From NCBI GenBank assembly GCA_026396535.1, contig JAPLWP010000005.1, positions 1 through 9,858 on the forward strand: a stretch of DNA of 9,858 nt, in the 5' to 3' direction. Made by a program: the position numbers and the translations under genes. A model generated the notes under the pieces. It was not told where the DNA came from, made no database searches, and saw only the letters and a list, made by a program, of their open reading frames with translations. Of the stretch, positions 387-9,805 are shown in pieces. The stretch's first letter is position 1. Each line of letters begins with the position of its first letter. The stretch is from Candidatus Magasanikiibacteriota bacterium. Its GTDB lineage: Bacteria; Patescibacteriota; Patescibacteriia; Magasanikbacterales; GWA2-37-8.

Positions 387-3300
387 CTATTGCACTTTAT
401 TAACTGGCACTACTATTTTATATTTAAAAAACGTATTAGAATGAGCTTGTACAGAAACACTGGTAAACCTTTGTACATCATTACATTCTTCCCAACCTGT
501 CAAATTATTGCCATTATAACAGCTTTCTGTTCCGTCGTTAGCGCCAGTTATATTATCTTTACACACTCCATTACACCACCCCCAATTATCCAAAACCTGA
601 ACTTTTGGTTGGTAAACACAACAACCTGAATTCCCAGCATCCTGCCATTTCTTTTGTTCTGCACCTGTCAAAACATCACAAGTAGGATTCCATCTTGGAT
701 CATTTTTACCACTACAGCTATAGTAGAATGTAGAAGCGTAAGGGTGTAGGTCACAAGTCTTATTAAGGATATATCCAAACGAATCGGCCTTAGCTTCATC
801 AGCGGTACATTCTGGTAATAATTTACCAGAACATTCACTATCTAGAGAGCAAGGCACAGCTGATCCATTACATACTCCAGCTTTACACATACCACCTACA
901 AAATATCCGCGCTGATTCCACAAACTGCCCGGAGGAGTTGTTTTTATATCACTTGGATTTCCGGTATCTGGATCTATAACCACTCTTTTTACCGGCATAT
1001 GATTGGAATCGGCATTGTAGAAGAATTGGAAATTAGCTTCGTATGGTTTGGTGTCGATTATTACATTCTTGCTGTAAATATTATTTACATTAAAACCATC
1101 TTGGAAAATTTCCTGGCAGTTTCCTTTGGTATCACAACCACCTACTGGGTGCACTTGAGGCACTCTACTAGAAGGCACATGATTGTCTCCACTGTAATTT
1201 GTATCTATATTGGTGACATCCAAATCTTTATTACCCAGAGTCAATTTGTCATTAGCGATAGGGTCGCGGTATGACTGACTAGCATCATTAGAAAATATTT
1301 TAATACTGGAAGCAGGGATTTTGGAATATATTTGTAATAACAAACCCAAGGATTCTTTTACTTTGGTCAAAAGAGGCTTGTCGTTCGTTGGGGCTGTGGA
1401 GTTACTGTTTTTTGGTATACATTCTTTTATTGAATCACCTTCACAACTATTTTGATAACACGCTGTATCGTTGGAGCAACCGACAGTTGTACTTACCACA
1501 CCACCAAAACTACAGCTACCACTACATAAAAATCCGTGACTTTCACAATTACTACTGCCATTAGCTGGATTACAATCCAAGGCCACCTGTATAGTGCTCG
1601 TACTAGTACAAGAATTAGTACTTATATTACATACAGAGTCCTTACCAAAAGACGTTTTGCATTTTGCATCGTCTCCCGTACCGTCTGCTTTTTTACATTT
1701 ATATTGACAGACACTATTATTAACATGATTTGCACAGACAATATTTGGGTTGCAATTAACATCAGTAGAACAATTGGAATAAGAACCAAAACTCCAATTA
1801 TCATAAGCAAAGTTATTGGAAGGAGTATTTTTATATGTCATCAAACCAGAACCTTGTGGACACACAGCCGTACTGAGCGGTTGACCAAAAATTCCAGCGG
1901 CCTGGCAAGATCGCAACAAATAAATACTTGTTTGTGCGCCCTTTACTTGTTCATCACCCAGAAAAGCAAATGGGGAAGAAGTGGAACCATACGAATAATT
2001 TACTTTATTTTTAAACGCCACATCTACTCCCGATACATCCAAATTCTTAAAGTTACTTTTACTAAATTGCCACAATCTATCAGACCAAGTCGCTAGTTTA
2101 TTATCCATATTACTAAACTGCGCGTAAGCCTGACAGGCTACCTGGCGATCTTGGAAGCTGTAATATAATTTGGAAAACCAAGCGCCGTCGGCATAAGCTT
2201 TTGGTTCTTCAGGAATACAATGTACATAGCACCAATCTGGATCATAATTTTCACAACCCTTTACACCACTCATTGCCGCTTGTTCATTTTTAAATCCAGG
2301 ACCACACACAAGATTGTCATGCAAATGACCATCTTGACCAATCCATAAATTACAATCCTTGTCTGAATTATAGACGCTATATCCAGTATCATAACATTTA
2401 TCAAAACCAGTCACATTTGATCTATATAAATCAGAAGCCAAACAATACTTCGTACCCACCGGCAACTGAGCAGCAGCTTCTGGGTGATTATTATTGATAT
2501 CTATCGCACCCTCAATTAGATCAAGCGGCAACCAACTCATACAGGCATATTGTGGATTGTCTTTTGTACCACCCAAAATTCTGGACTTGTCATATTCCAA
2601 ACAAAAACCTTTCCAACCATAAAAGTCTTGGGTCTTTTTGTCTTTTACTTTGCAAGCACCTCCTGATTTTTCACAATCTCCCGGCACAGAATTTCCATTT
2701 GCATCCACTACCGGAGGATCACACTGCTCACTGTCTTTTGATCCACCCACACAGATGCCTTTATTTTTCTCCACATAATTTTTCTGTAGAGATGAATTAC
2801 TGTCTTGTGAGAAATATTTTATCATTGTCTTATCTCCAAATGTAGCCTTGGTATAATCACACTCACATTTGTAAGCGGTCTTATCACCAGGATTCAATAT
2901 AGTATCCCCGCTTTCAAAACATTTATTTAATTTGGCAAAATTTTGAGTATTGTTGAAAGCGACATTTGGGAAAGGAGAATCTTTTTCTGGATAAGCACGA
3001 CAGCCTTGGCCAATACCCGAAGCAGCAATATTGCTAGCCGTACCGGCATTGTCTTCCATACATAATCCGTTTATACATGTACCCTGACTCTGGGTACCAC
3101 AAGAATCTGTGGAAGTTGGAGACTTACAACTAAACTGATTGCCACCACCGGCACATTTGGTCAGATCACTGCCACAAGGAATTAATTTGAGCAATCTCCA
3201 ATCCGGCTCAGCGGAAGGTTTGGCGATATTAAACTGCCATAATTCTTCAATCGGGAAGCTGCCCAAAATGGACAGACCAACTAGATCCTTACCTTTCCAC

Positions 3301-6300
3301 GAGACATCACGAGAAGTGTATATTCCTTCGGTCAAAACTTTATTGGAATAATCACTTTGTCCGGTAATAAATTCAGCGCAGTTGGCCGACTGACCATTTG
3401 GATTACTAGCGGATGGTAATTTATCACAAAGACCGACAGCGCTACACTGAGAAACAAATTTATTTTGTTTGTCATCCCAACGATCGGTACTGGCTTTACA
3501 TTGGAGCCACTCCGCACATTCGCGATCTCTTTTTACAGAGATAATACGATTGGCATCTAGAGTACCACTATTATTTGGAACTACTTTAGTTATTTTGAAT
3601 ACATCGGATTGATTGTCTGTTACCGCGCTATCACTCTGCGCATAGGTAGCGGCAGTATTGTATAATTTATTTGGATTATCGGTTTGATCAAACAGAGCAC
3701 AGCCGGCTTTTTGACTGACTTGGCCCGAACAATCCCCTTCTGAAACTTTATTATTATCTAACAAATAATAGGCTTGGTCTTTGTCGGCATGATCTACAAA
3801 TTCTGAACAAGTGTCCTGCTGCGCTGGACATTCACCAACAAAATTCTGATAATTAGCAGTGTCACCAAATGACCATAGGTCATAATAGTTGCCACTCTTT
3901 TGGTAGTTTGGATAACAAGCTTCTTTATCTTTGTAATCTGCCAAACAAGTATTGCCACCGGAACAATCGGTATCAGTTGTACAATATGTGGTTGGATTAG
4001 CAATAGCTTTGGTGGTGCTGTTTCCACAGACACTTACACCTTTCCAAAACCAACCAGTCGTATTTTGTTTCGTAACTGGATCGGCAAAAGTTTGAAATGA
4101 ACAGATTTTATTCCCGCTTAGAGCTGGATCTTTGAAATAAGCACTACCTTTACTGGAATTATATTCATCACAACCTACAGCTTCTTTTTGACACAAAGTA
4201 CCACTCTGCGGATTGCCATTGGCATCAGCGCCACCTTCAAATTGATTTGGATCTATTTTCACAGTGGTGGTGACATATTTCACACCAGCTGGAGTATTGG
4301 TTTGTTTTCCGACCATGGTACAGCCTAGGTCGATAGCATTACAAGAGCTATGGTCACTACCATCGGCTACCAAATATATAGTAGTACTATTAGTACTATC
4401 GGCAGGCACAAAATAAGTAGAATCAGATGGAACTGGAGCCAAAGTATTATTTACTTTTCCAGCAGAAATTTCAGCACTGGTATGACCTTTTATATTTACA
4501 TAACAGCCGGACTTGCCCTGCTCTACCTGACAAGAATAAGTATCATTACCGATCTTGGCGACTGCCTTCACACCACCTGGAGCCGCTACTGGCAAGAAAA
4601 CATTATATACTCGCGGTCCGGTGTCACCGACTTTGTTGTATGTATCTTTGAAAGCAGTACAGCCGATAGCGCCATCACGACAGAGATAACTAAAATTGGT
4701 CAAATAATAAAGAGTATCGCCCAAACTATTTTTTGGACCATTATACGCTGTACAACCCAAAGCCGCACCCGGTAAATTATCGTTGAGATTGTCGTCACAA
4801 ATCGGATCTATCTGGAGAGAATTTTTTACCAAATAAATATAATCGGAAACTTTGGTCAAATGTAGATTGTCCAAGAATAAACTACCGGCTGACTGGAGAG
4901 TAAAGGTAAGATTATTGAGAGTAGAGGTATTGGAAGTTGGTAATTTGATATGGAACTTAAATAACTGCCAAGTATTATTGGCGCTAAAAATTCCGGCATT
5001 TACATTTTGACCGCCGTTGTTATTCATTCCTACTGAAATATTTATACCTGTACCTTTGGCCCAGAAAGACAGATCATAGCTCTGATCTGAAGCCTGATCC
5101 ACATCTTGAGCTACCACTGGGATAGATTTGGAAACAACAGCGTTTGTACCTACTACTTCCATAGAATGTTCACCAGCATGGTTGGATTCATTGGATTGAG
5201 CAATTGTACCTCCTTGTACTGTCCAACCATTTTGAGCAGTTACAGAAACAGGGTTTTCAAAGTTATCTATTGGGTTACTACTAGAAGCATTTAAAACTAT
5301 TGAACGAATATTATTGCCGTGATTACCTTTGTAAGCGCGACAAGAAACCGCGCTAGCAGAACAAGTCTTGCTGGCTCCAGCACTACTATCAATACCACCC
5401 GGCAAACCATAGTAATAACACGAACCATCTTTGAATTGACCATTACCAAAACATTGGCTGGCGGTGGCTAATTCTGGACTATTGATACGATACTGTGAAC
5501 AGTCAGCGGACACTACTACAGTATTTGGCATTAAAGCGTAATAAACTTTTCCCTGATCATCATTAAATTGGCGGCAGTCCGGATCGGCTAAATGATTTTT
5601 GTATAAACTTTCATTACATTTATATTGGTTGGCATAATCACGCTCTGCTTGATCTTTAAAGACAGTAAGCGGACTACCATCGGTATATTTTTGTAAAACA
5701 AATGCTTGCAATTGATAACCCCCTACTTTTGAACCTTCATAGGTATAGAAATTTTTCTGTTTGGTGTCGTCTGGTTTGATACAATTGCGTAACAAAGTAA
5801 AATTATCTACTTTTTCACCACCATTTTGAGAAGTTTCCATGTTGGTAAAGCTGGTACAGCCATCGTCCTGAGCACTACATTCGCTACCGGATTGATTGTT
5901 GTTGTATTTGGAAGGAGGAATAATATAGGACACTGGATTGCCGGCGGAATAAGTAGTAGGCATTTCTTGATAAGCGCTATAGCCTACACAGCGAGCATCA
6001 CACTGATCATTCCAAGCTGTCACTGTATTATTTTGTACTTGAGCTGGCGAAAATTTACCTGGGATAGCCGGAGCATCAGCATCATTTACATTTTTAAATT
6101 GTGCACAACCAACTTCGCTAGCAATACATACCTGAGCATAATCCTTACACTCGGCTTTTGGTGTCATCTTAATAATATCTGACAATGATTGTGGCCAGTT
6201 TACACCACTACTGACTACATCAGCATCATAACAATTGAGATAATCTGGAGCTTTTTTGAGATAAACTAAATTATCATTATTTGCCAATTTAAAAGCACTA

Positions 6301-8243
6301 CAACCGGCAGCGGAAGCATTACAAGAAGTTACTTTATTATTCAAATAAATATTATCATTGGCAGATAAACTAGCCGCGCCTGGAACGGTCCAACCACTAG
6401 CATTTTGATTGAGACTGTAAGCAGTACAGCCTACATTGCTCTGATCACAACTACCCGTATCCAAAGTACGATACAGATAAGAAAGCTGTTGACCCTGACT
6501 ATTGGTAAACGAACGACAAGTAGCATATTGCGCGTCACATTTATCCGCATCAAATTTCCATACATTTTTTTCGCGCACACAGTTGCCATATCCTAGACAA
6601 TTGCCGGTGCTATCACGACCCACACAGGTCTTGAGGTCCACACATTCTTGCAGACGATCCGGCACATCATTTCCGACCGAAGAAGGACCATATCCCAGAG
6701 CGTCACAACGAGTTTGTTCTAATTTGATAACCCAGTTTGGATCTACCAAATGACAGTAAGGGTAATTGGCAGGATCATAATTTACTCCCACTACACTACC
6801 TTGAGCATCTTTTTGATAACTACAATCATAAAATCTTTTTACCGCTTCTTCCAAAGTAGCTGGATGATCTGGATCGCTATTTTTGGCCGCAATTTCTAAA
6901 CCAAGCGGAAGAATACCAAGCTGTCTGAGCACTGCTACGTTGCTATAGCAATAATTATTTTTATCAAAACAATGTGGATCAGAATTCATGGATACATTAG
7001 TAGGAGGAATCAGTTTGCCGCTTCCGTGCAACCAACCTTTTTGAATAGCCTGCGCAATTGTAACCGGATCACCGTGTTTGGCTTCTTGAATAGCCTGCAC
7101 CAAACTCTGATCAGCACGACAGTTGTATAATCCGTGAGAATCACAGCTGCTGAGCTGAGCCAAAATATCATAATCATTTACCGTATTTAATTTTGGTGTC
7201 AAAAATTCATTAAACACTGCTTCCGCGGCCGCGCGGCCGGTGATCTCACTGCCAGCACTGTTTGGATTTTGTCCTGGAGTTGGACATTTACCACCAGTAA
7301 CACCGTCGATATTTACACAACCTACCCCAAATGGCAACATACCATTTTCTTTGAAATTCTTGAGCATTTGAGAAGACAGTGTGTTCAAGAAAATAGAAAG
7401 AGTGGAAGGAATAATTTCATAAGCACCAGATCCCATAGCGGCGCCAATCTGTGCTTGGCTTTTGTCGTTTTGTTTGTTTGGCGCGTTGGCTTTCATTTCA
7501 TCAGCAGTCACAGCGGCTGGTGTTTTGATACGATTATCAATCAAACCGGTCACTGCTTTGAATCCGCCACCTTCAGCACGAGTAGCTTTGGCATCCTCAG
7601 TCTGTTGCAAATACAAGCGGTCAATTTTTTCACTAGTTTTAATATTAATACCCAAATCACTGTCATCTACTTTCAAAGAGGTAGCAAAAATTTTACTTGG
7701 ATCTATACCATTATTATAAACACTGCTCGCAGCATTCCCCCAGTTTTTGGCAAAAGTTGTTAGATTACAAGCTGGTTTTGGTGGATTGGCGCCATAATTA
7801 TAATGCAAACCAATTCTCAAAGCCAAATCAATTTTAACATCCGGAATTTTACATAAATCCAAACCAAAAGTTTTTCCAAAACTATCAATAGCGGCACCGG
7901 CTGCGTCATTACCCACATTTTTCAAATAACTACCGACACTATTGGTGTGAGCAAAAGGAGACTGACCTTTGCCACCAGCGGCAAGCCACACCGCGCTATC
8001 GTAGGCGACTTTACGCAAAAAATAACCAACGGCTTGTTGGGCGGCATTCATTACGGCAATCTTCCAACCATTTTTAATAACTGTAAAAATACTTTCAGCT
8101 TGAGCCTGAGCATCGGCTATCACTGTCACCGGCAACTGAGCCTGCGCTGGCTGGGCGGAAAAAATAAATTCTGTAAATGAAGAAAAAACAAATAAAGTCA
8201 AAAGCACCGCGACTGCAAATTTTTTTGTTTTTCTAAAAAACAT
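387..8243 (-). CDS. Giant cysteine-rich secreted protein with C-x6-C repeats (2618 aa)
   Basis: I do not recognise this gene as a named family; it resembles the very large cysteine-rich secreted proteins of Patescibacteria. Residues 1-35 form a signal peptide (basic FRKTKK start, long hydrophobic core, AQA cleavage site before Q36). A helical domain with few cysteines covers about 50-300. Cysteines are then frequent to the C-terminus: about 120 in all by hand count, an even number, close to 4.6%. Ten C-x6-C pairs lie between 569 and 1479. A carbohydrate-binding-module-like jelly roll sits at about 993-1132, small multi-cysteine modules at about 1406-1443, 1697-1728, 2158-2275 and 2453-2479, and a PKD/Ig-like domain at about 2395-2615. 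There is no C-terminal membrane anchor, LPXTG motif or recognisable enzyme centre. The frame is uninterrupted. The start ATG is eight bases after the upstream stop and lacks a clear Shine-Dalgarno, so translation may be coupled. A disulfide-stabilised surface or attachment role is inferred. Confidence 0.9.
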   Translation of the reverse strand: MFFRKTKKFAVAVLLTLFVFSSFTEFIFSAQPAQAQLPVTVIADAQAQAESIFTVIKNGWKIAVMNAAQQAVGYFLRKVAYDSAVWLAAGGKGQSPFAHTNSVGSYLKNVGNDAAGAAIDSFGKTFGLDLCKIPDVKIDLALRIGLHYNYGANPPKPACNLTTFAKNWGNAASSVYNNGIDPSKIFATSLKVDDSDLGINIKTSEKIDRLYLQQTEDAKATRAEGGGFKAVTGLIDNRIKTPAAVTADEMKANAPNKQNDKSQAQIGAAMGSGAYEIIPSTLSIFLNTLSSQMLKNFKENGMLPFGVGCVNIDGVTGGKCPTPGQNPNSAGSEITGRAAAEAVFNEFLTPKLNTVNDYDILAQLSSCDSHGLYNCRADQSLVQAIQEAKHGDPVTIAQAIQKGWLHGSGKLIPPTNVSMNSDPHCFDKNNYCYSNVAVLRQLGILPLGLEIAAKNSDPDHPATLEEAVKRFYDCSYQKDAQGSVVGVNYDPANYPYCHLVDPNWVIKLEQTRCDALGYGPSSVGNDVPDRLQECVDLKTCVGRDSTGNCLGYGNCVREKNVWKFDADKCDAQYATCRSFTNSQGQQLSYLYRTLDTGSCDQSNVGCTAYSLNQNASGWTVPGAASLSANDNIYLNNKVTSCNASAAGCSAFKLANNDNLVYLKKAPDYLNCYDADVVSSGVNWPQSLSDIIKMTPKAECKDYAQVCIASEVGCAQFKNVNDADAPAIPGKFSPAQVQNNTVTAWNDQCDARCVGYSAYQEMPTTYSAGNPVSYIIPPSKYNNNQSGSECSAQDDGCTSFTNMETSQNGGEKVDNFTLLRNCIKPDDTKQKNFYTYEGSKVGGYQLQAFVLQKYTDGSPLTVFKDQAERDYANQYKCNESLYKNHLADPDCRQFNDDQGKVYYALMPNTVVVSADCSQYRINSPELATASQCFGNGQFKDGSCYYYGLPGGIDSSAGASKTCSASAVSCRAYKGNHGNNIRSIVLNASSSNPIDNFENPVSVTAQNGWTVQGGTIAQSNESNHAGEHSMEVVGTNAVVSKSIPVVAQDVDQASDQSYDLSFWAKGTGINISVGMNNNGGQNVNAGIFSANNTWQLFKFHIKLPTSNTSTLNNLTFTLQSAGSLFLDNLHLTKVSDYIYLVKNSLQIDPICDDNLNDNLPGAALGCTAYNGPKNSLGDTLYYLTNFSYLCRDGAIGCTAFKDTYNKVGDTGPRVYNVFLPVAAPGGVKAVAKIGNDTYSCQVEQGKSGCYVNIKGHTSAEISAGKVNNTLAPVPSDSTYFVPADSTNSTTIYLVADGSDHSSCNAIDLGCTMVGKQTNTPAGVKYVTTTVKIDPNQFEGGADANGNPQSGTLCQKEAVGCDEYNSSKGSAYFKDPALSGNKICSFQTFADPVTKQNTTGWFWKGVSVCGNSTTKAIANPTTYCTTDTDCSGGNTCLADYKDKEACYPNYQKSGNYYDLWSFGDTANYQNFVGECPAQQDTCSEFVDHADKDQAYYLLDNNKVSEGDCSGQVSQKAGCALFDQTDNPNKLYNTAATYAQSDSAVTDNQSDVFKITKVVPNNSGTLDANRIISVKRDRECAEWLQCKASTDRWDDKQNKFVSQCSAVGLCDKLPSASNPNGQSANCAEFITGQSDYSNKVLTEGIYTSRDVSWKGKDLVGLSILGSFPIEELWQFNIAKPSAEPDWRLLKLIPCGSDLTKCAGGGNQFSCKSPTSTDSCGTQSQGTCINGLCMEDNAGTASNIAASGIGQGCRAYPEKDSPFPNVAFNNTQNFAKLNKCFESGDTILNPGDKTAYKCECDYTKATFGDKTMIKYFSQDSNSSLQKNYVEKNKGICVGGSKDSEQCDPPVVDANGNSVPGDCEKSGGACKVKDKKTQDFYGWKGFCLEYDKSRILGGTKDNPQYACMSWLPLDLIEGAIDINNNHPEAAAQLPVGTKYCLASDLYRSNVTGFDKCYDTGYSVYNSDKDCNLWIGQDGHLHDNLVCGPGFKNEQAAMSGVKGCENYDPDWCYVHCIPEEPKAYADGAWFSKLYYSFQDRQVACQAYAQFSNMDNKLATWSDRLWQFSKSNFKNLDVSGVDVAFKNKVNYSYGSTSSPFAFLGDEQVKGAQTSIYLLRSCQAAGIFGQPLSTAVCPQGSGLMTYKNTPSNNFAYDNWSFGSYSNCSTDVNCNPNIVCANHVNNSVCQYKCKKADGTGDDAKCKTSFGKDSVCNISTNSCTSTSTIQVALDCNPANGSSNCESHGFLCSGSCSFGGVVSTTVGCSNDTACYQNSCEGDSIKECIPKNSNSTAPTNDKPLLTKVKESLGLLLQIYSKIPASSIKIFSNDASQSYRDPIANDKLTLGNKDLDVTNIDTNYSGDNHVPSSRVPQVHPVGGCDTKGNCQEIFQDGFNVNNIYSKNVIIDTKPYEANFQFFYNADSNHMPVKRVVIDPDTGNPSDIKTTPPGSLWNQRGYFVGGMCKAGVCNGSAVPCSLDSECSGKLLPECTADEAKADSFGYILNKTCDLHPYASTFYYSCSGKNDPRWNPTCDVLTGAEQKKWQDAGNSGCCVYQPKVQVLDNWGWCNGVCKDNITGANDGTESCYNGNNLTGWEECNDVQRFTSVSVQAHSNTFFKYKIVVPVNKVQ
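399..1061 (-). other. PKD/Ig-like C-terminal domain with a cysteine-rich insertion (residues about 2395-2615)
   Basis: The ends of this region look like the two halves of one Ig-like (PKD-type) beta sandwich. The first half has strands around ANFQFFYNADSNHMPVKRVV followed by DPDTGNP where PKD domains carry the W-G-D-G turn. The second half has PKVQVLDNWGW, like the V-x-V-x-D-N-x-G strand of PKD domains, and a final FKYKIVVP strand. Between and around them are about 14 cysteines, including C-x4-C-x6-C-x5-C at 2453-2471, and a CC pair at 2541-2542. There is no membrane anchor after the last strand. PKD domains are common in surface proteins. The assignment rests on pattern reading only. Confidence 0.4.
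1419..1772 (-). other. Densest cysteine cluster of the giant protein (residues 2158-2275)
   Basis: Sixteen cysteines occur in 118 residues, the highest density in the protein. At least two units share the pattern C-x2-D-x2-C: CSTDVNCNPNIVC near 2158-2170 and CSNDTACYQNSC near 2256-2267. The stretch between is rich in S, N and G with few hydrophobic residues, as expected for a string of small disulfide-held loops. It separates the middle of the protein from the C-terminal domain and may act as a rigid linker; that is inference. Confidence 0.5.
3060..3155 (-). other. Small multi-cysteine module 2 of the giant protein (residues 1697-1728)
   Basis: Cysteines at 1697, 1706, 1715, 1723 and 1728 are spaced at five to nine residues, with a GTCINGLC ending typical of small disulfide-rich modules. 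It follows a tryptophan-bearing stretch (about 1649-1682) that includes FPIEELWQF and PDWRLLKLIPC. I see no enzymatic motif. It is likely a structural element of the extracellular stalk. Confidence 0.4.
3915..4028 (-). other. Small multi-cysteine module 1 of the giant protein (residues 1406-1443)
   Basis: Five cysteines lie within 38 residues, including the string CTTDTDCSGGNTC. The C-x-x-D-x-D-C-x-G-G-x-x-C form resembles small disulfide-rich modules found in extracellular proteins of bacteria and animals. It interrupts the C-x6-C array between the copies at 1351/1358 and 1472/1479. It is probably a compact disulfide-bonded loop; no ligand can be deduced. Confidence 0.45.
4848..5267 (-). other. 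Carbohydrate-binding-module-like jelly roll inside the giant protein (residues about 993-1132)
   Basis: This roughly 140-residue block has no cysteine, although cysteines are dense on both sides, and it reads as a separate beta-sandwich. It has the pattern of CBM4/9-type modules: an opening NFENP, then GWTVQGGTIAQ, a SNHAGEHSMEV segment (the usual G-x-x-S/A-hydrophobic element), a LSFWAKG strand, a WQLFKFHIKLP strand, and a closing LFLDNLHL strand. Tryptophans at about 1007, 1061 and 1092 could line a ligand site. It lies between the repeat copies at 961/968 and 1149/1164. In known families such modules bind polysaccharides or act as structural spacers; sugar binding here is inference. Confidence 0.6.
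7794..8096 (-). other. Helical N-terminal domain of the giant protein (residues about 50-150)
   Basis: The stretch following the signal peptide is alanine- and glycine-rich and mostly helix-forming. It contains the recognisable string AYDSAVWLAAGGKGQSPF near residues 80-97 and a second helix with NDAAGAAIDSF near 112-122. Cysteine is almost absent here (only C131 and C159 before residue 300), in contrast to the rest of the protein. From memory, similar strings occur at the N-terminus of large secreted proteins in other candidate-phyla genomes, but I could not check this. The domain may serve anchoring or assembly at the cell surface; that is a guess based on position only. Confidence 0.4.
8139..8243 (-). 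other. Signal peptide of the giant protein (residues 1-35)
   Basis: The first 35 residues have the three parts of a Sec signal peptide: a basic start with R4, K5, K7 and K8, a long hydrophobic core from about residue 9 to 30, and an A-Q-A motif at 33-35 that predicts cleavage before Q36. There is no lipobox cysteine, so the protein is not a lipoprotein, and no twin-arginine motif. The mature protein should therefore be exported unfolded and form its disulfides outside the membrane. Confidence 0.85.
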
Positions 8244-8251
8244 ATTAGGGA

Positions 8252-8896
8252 CTATTTCTTAGGAGATGAACTAGTTGAATTATTTAAATTTTGAACATTA
8301 GTAGCGGCAGTATTTGGATTCATCATCTCCTGTACCATCTGCATCAGTTCGGTGTCACTATATTTGTCTACAATTTCTTTTTTTACACCCGCACCTATCA
8401 GCATGGCGCGCACCTGGACCGGATCCTTGATAGCTTTCTCTAGATCAGCGGCTGGAGCTGTCGCTGGCGCTCTTAAATCAGCCGGAGTGGCAGAAACGGT
8501 GCTAGTAGCGGCCACTTCAGTAGCTTGCATAGATTGACTACAGTCGGTACCTTCAGCACATAGCGGATTAGTCTTGCTTTGAATTTCTTTTCCATCTAGA
8601 ATGCCGTCCCCATCGGTGTCTGGCAAATAAGGACTAGTACCATAAACATACAACTCATCAAAATCACTGAGATTGTCACGATCAGTATCACGAAAACGCA
8701 AAGCGTCTACAGTATCTACCTGATCTTTTATGGAAGCGGAAATTTCTTTGTTGAGAGCAAAACGATTATAAATATTATTTCGAATCTGGAGCATGCCCAA
8801 ACCAATCGCTAAAATAGCAAAAGCCAACAGTAAGACAAAACCAATCTTCTGTTCTTTAGTCAAGATTGAGCTAATGGTATTTTGGCTTTCAGCCAT
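8252..8896 (-). CDS. Single-pass membrane protein with two TSP3-type calcium-binding loops (214 aa)
   Basis: The protein begins with a short polar tail, then one hydrophobic segment (about residues 18-38, GFVLLLAFAILAIGLGMLQI) that should anchor it in the membrane, with the rest probably outside. Two aspartate-rich loops follow: D70-T-D-R-D-N-L-S-D-F-D-E81 and D93-T-D-G-D-G-I-L-D-G-K-E104. They match thrombospondin type 3 repeats, which bind calcium through the aspartates. Two cysteines (113, 119) may form a disulfide. An A/T/P-rich linker (about 121-152) leads to a helical C-terminal part (about 153-192) and an N/S-rich tail. No enzymatic function is visible. It ends eight bases before the giant gene and probably shares its transcript, so it could be a membrane partner or anchor for the giant protein; this is inferred from position. 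The start codon has no clear Shine-Dalgarno but lies just below a good promoter. Confidence 0.85.
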   Translation of the reverse strand: MAESQNTISSILTKEQKIGFVLLLAFAILAIGLGMLQIRNNIYNRFALNKEISASIKDQVDTVDALRFRDTDRDNLSDFDELYVYGTSPYLPDTDGDGILDGKEIQSKTNPLCAEGTDCSQSMQATEVAATSTVSATPADLRAPATAPAADLEKAIKDPVQVRAMLIGAGVKKEIVDKYSDTELMQMVQEMMNPNTAATNVQNLNNSTSSSPKK

Positions 8897-8930: not shown

Positions 8931-8949
8931 CCACATTATTATAATGTGG
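8931..8949 (-). repeat. Inverted repeat around the rsmA stop codon
   Basis: Two nine-base arms, CCACATTAT and ATAATGTGG, flank a single central base. The rsmA stop codon lies at the centre. There is no T run after the hairpin on the minus strand (TTTCTGTGG follows), so it is a poor terminator. It overlaps the position of the -35 region of the promoter at 8916-8924, so it could be a protein-binding operator, or a hairpin that marks the 3' end of the rsmA transcript. The symmetry is certain; the role is not. Confidence 0.5.
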
Positions 8950-9805
8950 ATATCTTTGCTAACTTTTCCCAATCTTCTACCGATAGCTCCTGGGCGCGCA
9001 CGGTACCACTAAAGCCCATATTTTTGAGAGCAACTTTGAGAGCCTCTTTGTTTTGTTTGCCAAAAAAAGGCAATAAATTTTTGATTAGAAGTTTGCGTTT
9101 CTGAGCAAAACCGATTTTTACCATTTGGAAGAATTTTTTATTGAATTCGGTATCTGGACGAGGTTTATTTACTACCACTTTTATCACCGCTGAATCCACG
9201 GCTGGAGATGGCCAAAAATTATTACGCTTTACCTCACCTGCAATCTCAGCCTGACCAAAATACTGCACAGCAATGGCCAATACGGACATATCCCCGGGCT
9301 TAGCACAAATACGGTCAGCTACTTCCTTTTGGACCATCAGGGTCATTTCTTTTGGTTTATTGGCCAAATCTTCCAAAAATAATTTTAAAACCGGTGAAGT
9401 AATTTGATATGGCAAATTGGAAACTACTTTGTAATTTTTTGGAAAAATTTTTGGATCAGCGCGCAATACATTGCCCCAAATGATTTCAAAATTATCTTCT
9501 TGGGTTTGGGCAAGTCTGGAGCTGATTTCCTGCCAATATGATTCAAGCTTTTTTTCAATTTCAAAAGCGAATAATTTTTTTACTTTAGCGGCCAGATCCA
9601 GAGTGAGAATACCAAATCCCGGACCAACTTCAATCACAGTGTCCTTTTTGGTTACACCGCTGACTGCAATAATCATATCGATCACTTCCGGATTGATGAG
9701 ATAGTTTTGTCCGTATTCTTTGGATGGCCGTAGTTGAAATTTCGCGCAAAGATGTTTGAGATAATCAACATTAAAAAGTTTTTCATTCATACTATATTTG
9801 TACAT
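8939..9805 (-). CDS. rsmA: 16S rRNA (adenine1518-N6/adenine1519-N6)-dimethyltransferase RsmA (KsgA)
   Basis: RsmA uses S-adenosylmethionine to dimethylate two neighbouring adenines in the 3' hairpin of 16S rRNA, a late step in small-subunit assembly in the cytoplasm. The 288-residue length is normal. All family motifs are visible: K29-E-Y-G-Q-N-Y-L near the N-terminus, the cofactor loop VIEVGPGFGILT (57-68), the acidic residue in FEIEK (E82 or E84) for the ribose, the catalytic NLPYQIT (130-136), FWPSPAVDSAVI (197-208), and FAQKRKLLIKNL (233-244), where many relatives have QRRK. The C-terminal helical part ends with QELSVEDWEKLA. The ATG at 9805 is chosen because AAGGTGG lies five bases before it; a second ATG at 9790 has no such site. 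The gene lies upstream of, and in the same direction as, the two surface-protein genes, but a separate promoter follows it. Loss of this enzyme is known in other bacteria to give kasugamycin resistance. Confidence 0.97.
   Translation of the reverse strand: MYKYSMNEKLFNVDYLKHLCAKFQLRPSKEYGQNYLINPEVIDMIIAVSGVTKKDTVIEVGPGFGILTLDLAAKVKKLFAFEIEKKLESYWQEISSRLAQTQEDNFEIIWGNVLRADPKIFPKNYKVVSNLPYQITSPVLKLFLEDLANKPKEMTLMVQKEVADRICAKPGDMSVLAIAVQYFGQAEIAGEVKRNNFWPSPAVDSAVIKVVVNKPRPDTEFNKKFFQMVKIGFAQKRKLLIKNLLPFFGKQNKEALKVALKNMGFSGTVRAQELSVEDWEKLAKISTL

Follow-up and report, generated by a model that had tools for sequence, protein, structure and literature searches.

Giant gene and encoded protein

The window (the whole stretch of DNA analysed, 9858 bases) is a complete contig, JAPLWP010000005.1, of a Candidatus Magasanikiibacteriota bacterium (assembly GCA_026396535.1, a genome of 870 kb that is 88 % complete). 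It holds the gene of a giant cysteine-rich protein with an unnamed repeat, which may be a surface scaffold used by a type IV secretion system (T4SS) at the host cell. The gene is one open frame on the minus strand (387..8243, running from 8243 to 387) and codes for 2618 amino acids (aa), 120 of them cysteines. In the genome assembly, the gene was likewise present as one open frame. All features described below lie on the minus strand.

Residues 1–35 (8139..8243) form a predicted Sec signal peptide with an AQA-Q cleavage site placed by eye, and the giant is predicted to be secreted. This segment is the only one with a 19-residue Kyte-Doolittle mean above 1.6; by this measure, no further strongly hydrophobic segment was found in the protein. 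The signal peptide is followed by an N-terminal region (residues 36–560, 6564..8138), which is covered by alignment A3 and gave profile matches across the class. Within it lies an N-terminal core (residues 74–256, 7476..8024) with homologues in other patescibacterial classes, where they are short proteins encoded in T4SS operons. The repeat occupies the middle of the protein. A C-terminal domain (residues 2351–2618, 390..1193) is conserved after a variable stretch and has separate matches in relatives.

A total of 251 homologous proteins were found, 120 of which were among the matches listed. The named close homologues among these 120 were mostly Magasanik-, Uhr- and Falkowbacteria, which we take to be members of the GTDB class ABY1; a few of the listed rows were labelled otherwise (e.g. 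Kaiserbacteria, Paceibacter and Udaeobacter). The genome samples were labelled merely as 'same class', with no class name, and 'the class' is used here in that sense. The 28 giants of alignment A1 ranged from 2186 to 3130 aa. For the conservation counts, 78 loci were collected, and 77 had a forward giant frame. The 67 proteins longer than 1800 aa were aligned with the window protein (68 proteins in all), and the ten shorter ones were dropped.

The C-x6-C repeat

The repeat spans residues 569–1515, which is 6539 to 3699 in the window and exactly the stretch (3699..6539) where an earlier note on this DNA had seen it. Ten non-overlapping C-x6-C units were identified: residues 569–576 (6516..6539), 599–606 (6426..6449), 641–648 (6300..6323), 706–713 (6105..6128), 789–796 (5856..5879), 961–968 (5340..5363), 1188–1195 (4659..4682), 1301–1308 (4320..4343, the weakest of the ten), 1351–1358 (4170..4193) and 1472–1479 (3807..3830). 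The basis was the reading of residues, the structure line, a leave-one-out profile and the 68-protein alignment. An eleventh C-x6-C pair, 699–706, shares Cys706 with unit 706, and therefore ten units were counted and not 11.

Counting residues confirmed the ten six-spaced copies of the earlier note and its aromatic residue at position +3 after the second cysteine in nine of them (unit 1301 has V). The note had also seen at least three looser copies. Four were found, and their cysteines were retained in 67–68 of the 68 proteins, yet they had a low score or none with the hidden Markov model (HMM) of the unit. These are 748–752 with the spacing C-x3-C (5988..6002; cysteines and spacing in 68/68, no score), 876–890 with a long inner loop (5574..5618; both cysteines in 68/68, −3.2 bits), 1149–1164 (4752..4799; 67/68, 4.2 bits) and 1505–1515 (3699..3731; 67/68, −1.2 bits). 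The aromatic strand said to precede each unit stood only in part: according to DSSP, it is the second hairpin strand of the prior unit in several cases.

Residues 560–1540 contained 11 C-x6-C pairs, compared with a mean of 1.34 and a maximum of 7 in 5000 shuffles. In the leave-one-out test, each unit was scored with a profile built from the remaining units, minus neighbours up to 38 residues away, and 200 Cys-preserving shuffles were scored alongside. Nine of the ten units outscored all 200 shuffles, and the score of unit 1301 was reached by four of them. Outside the units, the giant has six other C-x6-C pairs; five had no match to the unit profile, and one reached −2.8 bits at best.

Units were also compared profile to profile, with 20 repeat windows and 11 control windows taken from the 28-sequence alignment. 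Many non-overlapping unit pairs matched at a probability of 50–88 % (e.g. 641/789 with 86 %, 1188/1351 with 88 %, 789/1351 with 72 % and 599/1351 with 63 %), and non-overlapping control windows stayed at ≤16 % against any repeat window. Judged by sequence comparison, at least the ten C-x6-C units are of one kind, and the repeat is a candidate new protein family. Its weak points are units 1301, 1472 and 961, which matched few others in this comparison, and the +3 aromatic, which was poorly kept among the 68 proteins (32 for unit 641, 40 for unit 1188 and 14 for unit 1301).

All twenty cysteines of the ten units were kept in 67 of 67 homologues. The inner spacing was six in 65–68 of the 68 aligned proteins for each of the ten units, and the linkers between units measured 19 to 302 residues. 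Hence the unit is fixed and the linkers vary freely. One giant departs in another spacing: P0117 (3130 aa, 166 cysteines) has 27 C-x5-C pairs versus 8–16 in the other 27 aligned proteins and is an expansion of that spacing.

Predicted fold and embedded jelly rolls

The AlphaFold model of the giant had a mean predicted local distance difference test (pLDDT) score of 86.9. Structure prediction had been proposed in the earlier note. All ten C-x6-C units of the model share a short helix flanked by the two cysteines and a strand after the second cysteine. Nine of them also have a clear second strand; unit 599 has only two-residue bridges there. Each unit is thus predicted to run as cysteine, short helix, cysteine and strand, with a second strand in nine of them.

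Whole-protein searches of Pfam, NCBIfam and PDB sequences gave no match over cut-off for the repeat. The unit profile had no significant match among PDB sequences either (best E 1.1). None of the curated cysteine-repeat families (EGF, TNFR, DX and the like) passed the cut-off in Pfam or NCBIfam. These searches agree with the earlier note, which had known no named family with this spacing. DX (PF01666) reached an E-value of 0.017, below cut-off, at residues 1409–1446 and outside the units. A second cysteine motif, C-x2-D-x2-C-x4-7-C, lies beneath this weak match (residues 1421–1433, window 3945–3983) and in the C-terminal part (2158–2170, 2256–2267 and 2465–2479, window 807–1772). It may be a different repeat family.

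Foldseek and VIA searches with the whole model returned rows taken up by a jelly roll; that the repeat fold is missing from these lists is no evidence for a new fold. Vip3, GH101 and named phage tail proteins gave long alignments and were discarded (query TM-score ≤0.14, root-mean-square deviation >20). A second model, of residues 36–985 and lacking the main jelly roll, was poor (mean pLDDT 67, predicted TM-score 0.36), and Foldseek found nothing at E ≤ 0.001 with it.

The jelly roll itself (residues 974–1134, 4842..5324) sits in the linker 968–1149, and its fold resembles the CBM_4_9 type of carbohydrate-binding module (CBM). The window protein had no CBM match at E ≤ 1 in Pfam, and the Pfam gathering score was not reached. 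In homologues, PF02018 was precomputed for 18 of the 120 among the matches listed and was over cut-off in one of three scanned (L093). At least 60 % of the jelly-roll columns were filled in 67 of 67 homologues; in alignment terms, the main jelly roll is no odd insertion.

The linker 648–699, which follows unit 641, comes in two sizes of either 31–72 or 200–295 residues. The 34 long versions (34 of the 68 proteins, e.g. L055, L073 and L093) contain a second CBM-like jelly roll, which is absent from the window protein. In hhalign, the second jelly roll matched the first at 97 % (E 4.6e-11), and three control regions reached ≤0.6 %. In L073 and L055, it was detected by profile comparison only and not by Pfam.

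Taken against the earlier note, which had pictured a modular, disulfide-clamped rod, the unnamed repeat, the shared local fold and a jelly-roll domain held inside one loop were borne out; the disulfide pairing, the rod shape, the surface location and the adhesion of the giant we infer.

Towards the C-terminus, mean column conservation dropped to 0.03–0.04 at residues 2101–2300 (window 1344–1943), between conserved parts. This may reflect fast change or poor alignment, as would be expected if the stretch faced a varying partner.

Cysteine pairing and oxidation

Six cysteine pairs were present as both or neither in all 68 proteins: 671–699, 1238–1247, 309–320, 1775–1793, 1748–1795 and 2497–2557. 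Thioredoxin_4, which we take to be DsbA-like, was found in 37 of 37 near genomes and in nine of 14 control genomes. VKOR was found in 22 of the 37 near genomes and in three of the 14 control genomes. From the pattern of the pairs and these counts, oxidation of the giant is likely.

Type IV secretion neighbourhood

Upstream of the giant gene lies the gene of a TSP3-repeat protein (8252..8896; 214 aa, one hydrophobic segment; Pfam TSP3_bac, E 5.7e-6), which ends 8 bp before the giant's start codon. It is preceded by rsmA/ksgA (8939..9805; TIGR00755, 233 bits), the first gene of the conserved neighbourhood. Upstream neighbours were counted where ≥1.5 kb of upstream sequence was available (72 loci) and downstream neighbours where the downstream sequence reached ≥8 kb (39 loci). 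The counts are lower bounds because they come from BLAST clusters.

A TSP3-like gene was upstream in 68 of 72 loci and directly adjacent in 64, and ksgA was upstream in 60. Downstream, a VirB6-like gene was found in 25 of 39 loci (19 within 2.8 kb, six at 5.6–8.2 kb), PrgI in 16 and VirB4 in 14. The giant is therefore encoded together with virB6, prgI and virB4 in these numbers of loci; elsewhere, the genes were out of reach. The giant and PrgI were both present in 34 near genomes. In 15 of these, they shared a contig at a distance of about 16 kb or less, and in the other 19 they were on different contigs.

The identity of these neighbours was checked on single members. Pfam named one PrgI member (PF12666) and two VirB4 members (PF19044), and two VirB6-like members scanned had no Pfam match of their own. 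The VirB6-like set of cluster 6 matched a seven-member set from other classes at E 3.5e-60 in hhalign, and the L113 member of the latter set passes PF04610 (TrbL). A control membrane cluster reached 0.3 %.

The TSP3 protein of the window is nearly as constant as the giant. TSP3 repeats bind calcium, and the upstream protein is likely a calcium-binding partner. Proteins with four TSP3 stretches occupy the same place in other classes (L114, L117). Between VirB6 and PrgI lie further proteins (L022:23174-26353, L025:21951-22925; clusters 27, 23 and 10); three were scanned, with no Pfam match over cut-off. In the window's own genome (L119), three frames follow a piece of VirB6.

Distribution and homologues in other classes

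Neither the T4SS context nor the distribution across the class nor the N-terminal homology in other classes had been raised by the earlier note. A whole-protein search gave giant matches in 56 of 57 near genomes, including the window's own. Of 191 genomes sampled from the class, 170 matched the N-terminal profile (A3), as did 153 of the 165 better ones. Across the phylum, it matched in 42 of 379 genomes, of which 33 belonged to the class and nine did not (E 1e-12 to 3e-4).

The unit profile (A5) behaved differently from the N-terminal one. It matched in 21 of 239 phylum genomes; 18 were in the class, with 5–10 matches each and always in the giant frame. Three matches outside the class (E 0.0016–0.009) fell in frames with stops and were rejected as noise. 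No match in an open frame was found outside the class in these 239 genomes. Therefore, within this sample of one phylum, the repeat looks confined to the giant of one class.

In the nine genomes from other classes, the A3 matches lay in frames of 280–886 aa, and eight loci were fetched. All eight encode a protein of 344–880 aa with 4–8 cysteines that bears the N-terminal core. The VirB6-like gene follows directly in six of eight; in L110, one 342-aa gene lies in between, and in L115 the next frame has 1085 aa. Where the locus was long enough, KsgA, TSP3, PrgI, TrsD-like and VirB4 neighbours were read from translations (L112 and L117 are cut). The Pfam scans here covered only L113, L114 and L117. 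PrgI, TrbL, VirB4 and KsgA passed in L113, whose membrane protein had no match; TSP3 passed in L114, with TrbL below cut-off, and in L117.

The N-domains of the giants and of the short proteins matched in hhalign at 98.5 % (E 1.8e-15, 168 columns), and the short-protein profile matched the window giant at E 4.6e-11. These profile matches make the giant's N-terminal domain a homologue of the shorter proteins that occupy this operon place in other classes. Examples are P0121, the L110 protein, from Parcubacteria bacterium C7867-005 and P0123 from a Zambryskibacteria bacterium. In a large database, the short-protein profile found nine proteins (its own first row included), and it matched in 18 of 239 genomes, one of which was the window's. 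As these matches are few, the N-domain seems to diverge fast. The short proteins share the N-terminal core and the operon place with the giant; they differ in length and cysteine number, and the unit profile matched no open frame outside the class in the 239 genomes scanned.

Two partial relatives were also seen in the genome samples: a 1578-aa frame (G009:C23:82-2508) that is a second, partial relative of the giant, and a 210-aa frame (G019:C2:1534-2055) that matches the C-terminal domain only.

Interpretation and rival explanations

As the gene is often near T4SS genes, the giant is predicted to be a surface part that likely touches the host cell. We read it as a secreted, cysteine-rich surface scaffold by which the T4SS meets the host, and we put the probability of this reading at roughly one half. 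The giant would be exported by Sec, and a disulfide between its two cysteines would then close each unit. What several classes have in common is the N-terminal region, which suggests it as the docking part; candidate partners at the T4SS are VirB6 and the TSP3 membrane protein. A stiff chain of such units would hold the jelly rolls and the C-terminal domain outward to bind host glycans.

A bolder version is held only tentatively, at less than even odds: in this whole class, the short N-domain protein of the phylum may have grown into a disulfide-clamped mast of 2,000–4,000 residues with an undescribed repeat fold, an outer organ peculiar to this T4SS that carries glycan-binding jelly rolls to the host and serves as a conjugative pilus or adhesin would.

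Several observations weigh against the scaffold reading. In 14 of the 39 loci with 8 kb downstream, eight of them named Uhrbacteria, no VirB6-like gene was in reach. In at least one genome (G011), the giant and PrgI are on two different long contigs, and another (G017) has PrgI and no giant match. In the window's own incomplete genome, PrgI was not found, and VirB6-like sequence was present only as a C-terminal piece starting contig 7. The homologues of other classes were chosen with the giants' profile, and hence their sequence match is not fully independent; unlike it, their gene order is independent evidence. With regard to oxidation, VKOR was not found in 15 of the 37 near genomes, again including the window's own. 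Several of the paired cysteine losses are deletions of whole segments, and other pairs are not strict (474–497 with one single cysteine; 425–432, itself a C-x6-C pair, with three). The joint loss of cysteines therefore counts as support only. CBM-like folds need not bind sugar. Finally, host attachment of Saccharibacteria is ascribed to type IV pili in the excerpts of PMC12102498 and PMC10633639, and a further adhesin is thus not required.

The strongest rival, which we consider unlikely, is that the giant is a general coat or adhesin, a structural or adhesive surface protein whose place in the ksgA-TSP3 operon is inherited and which does no work with the T4SS. The 14 loci with no VirB6-like gene within the flank and the six with this gene at 5.6–8.2 kb would fit it. 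It would also fit the Peribacteria, whose cysteine-rich exported proteins have a proposed attachment role, with a T4SS link unmentioned in the excerpt of PMC4736985. It fits less well with the shorter N-domain homologues of other classes, which sit in the same T4SS operon order.

Capture of glycans is an improbable rival. Here, the jelly rolls would bind polysaccharide of the host or the environment for feeding, with no role in contact. No enzyme family was over cut-off in the window protein (Pfam, NCBIfam), the jelly roll is a small share of the 2618 residues, and the conserved genes closest to the giant's are ksgA, TSP3 and those of the T4SS.

Still less probable is a T4SS substrate, passed into the host as an effector. 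The operon linkage and the variable stretch near the C-terminus would suit such a protein, but the Sec-type signal peptide and the conserved, partly pair-wise kept cysteines suit surface export and oxidation rather than transfer out of the cytoplasm, and the N-terminal core is common to the 344–880 aa proteins of other classes.

Separate origins of similarly spaced cysteine pairs can be all but dismissed as the least credible account: the identity of the other units' rows to the first row is low (6–27 %), unit 1301 is weak, and units 1301, 1472 and 961 match few others, but nine of ten units were recovered above all shuffles, the six other pairs were not, and the predicted local structure is common to all ten.

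Relation to known systems

TraN of F-like plasmids is an outer-membrane protein of about 600 aa that is cysteine-rich, encoded with a T4SS and active in mating-pair stabilisation. The giant resembles it in cysteine content, T4SS link and proposed contact role; general Pfam and NCBIfam scans of the giant gave no TraN-type match. PrgB of pCF10 is the surface adhesin of a Gram-positive conjugation system. In role, the giant would correspond to PrgB: a contact-promoting surface protein of large size beside a FATA-type T4SS. No adhesin model was over cut-off for the giant in Pfam and NCBIfam, libraries whose adhesin content was not checked.

The excerpt of a survey of the phylum (PMC12102498) assigns the T4SS of Patescibacteria to the Gram-positive FATA kind and reports that an adhesin such as PrgB went undetected there. 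The giant would fill the place of that adhesin in this class. The same excerpt gives KsgA as abundant near virB4 in most classes and names comF, recG and radA for ABY1. Searched by term, the survey's main text contained neither 'giant' nor 'large protein', and 'cysteine' occurred for a peptidase domain only.

That cysteine-rich proteins of this phylum may serve in attachment has already been proposed in published work. Those of Peribacteria, as described in the excerpt of PMC4736985, resemble the giant in being patescibacterial, large and rich in cysteines, with a signal peptide and a proposed role in attachment. They are twenty proteins of one lineage (average 1655 aa, 7.2 % cysteine) with weak similarity to Myxococcus repeats and pappalysin-1. 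Compared by description only, the giant differs from them in being encoded by a single gene that occurs across the class near T4SS genes, and in having a C-x6-C unit. Excerpts of other papers report a secreted cysteine-rich protein next to CRISPR (PMC6509639) and patescibacterial membrane families of unknown kind in contexts including virB6 (PMC10849945). The giant gene, its repeat and its T4SS place were not found in a literature search in which bioRxiv was outside coverage and subscription journals were sparse. Compared with jelly rolls of the CBM_4_9, CBM22 and CBM29 kind, that of the giant is a module inside a cysteine-rich scaffold, and the window protein has no CBM match as noted.

Little is settled about the way in which Patescibacteria grip their hosts. 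In Southlakia epibionticum, the only species with genetics, the T4SS is essential, as are type IV pili and proteins with domains of glycan-binding type (PMC10633639, in excerpt). The giant is a concrete candidate for host contact: it is found in most sampled genomes of its class, has a countable repeat and glycan-binding-like modules, and is often near T4SS genes. The shorter homologues in other classes make its N-terminal domain testable as a common component of the T4SS.
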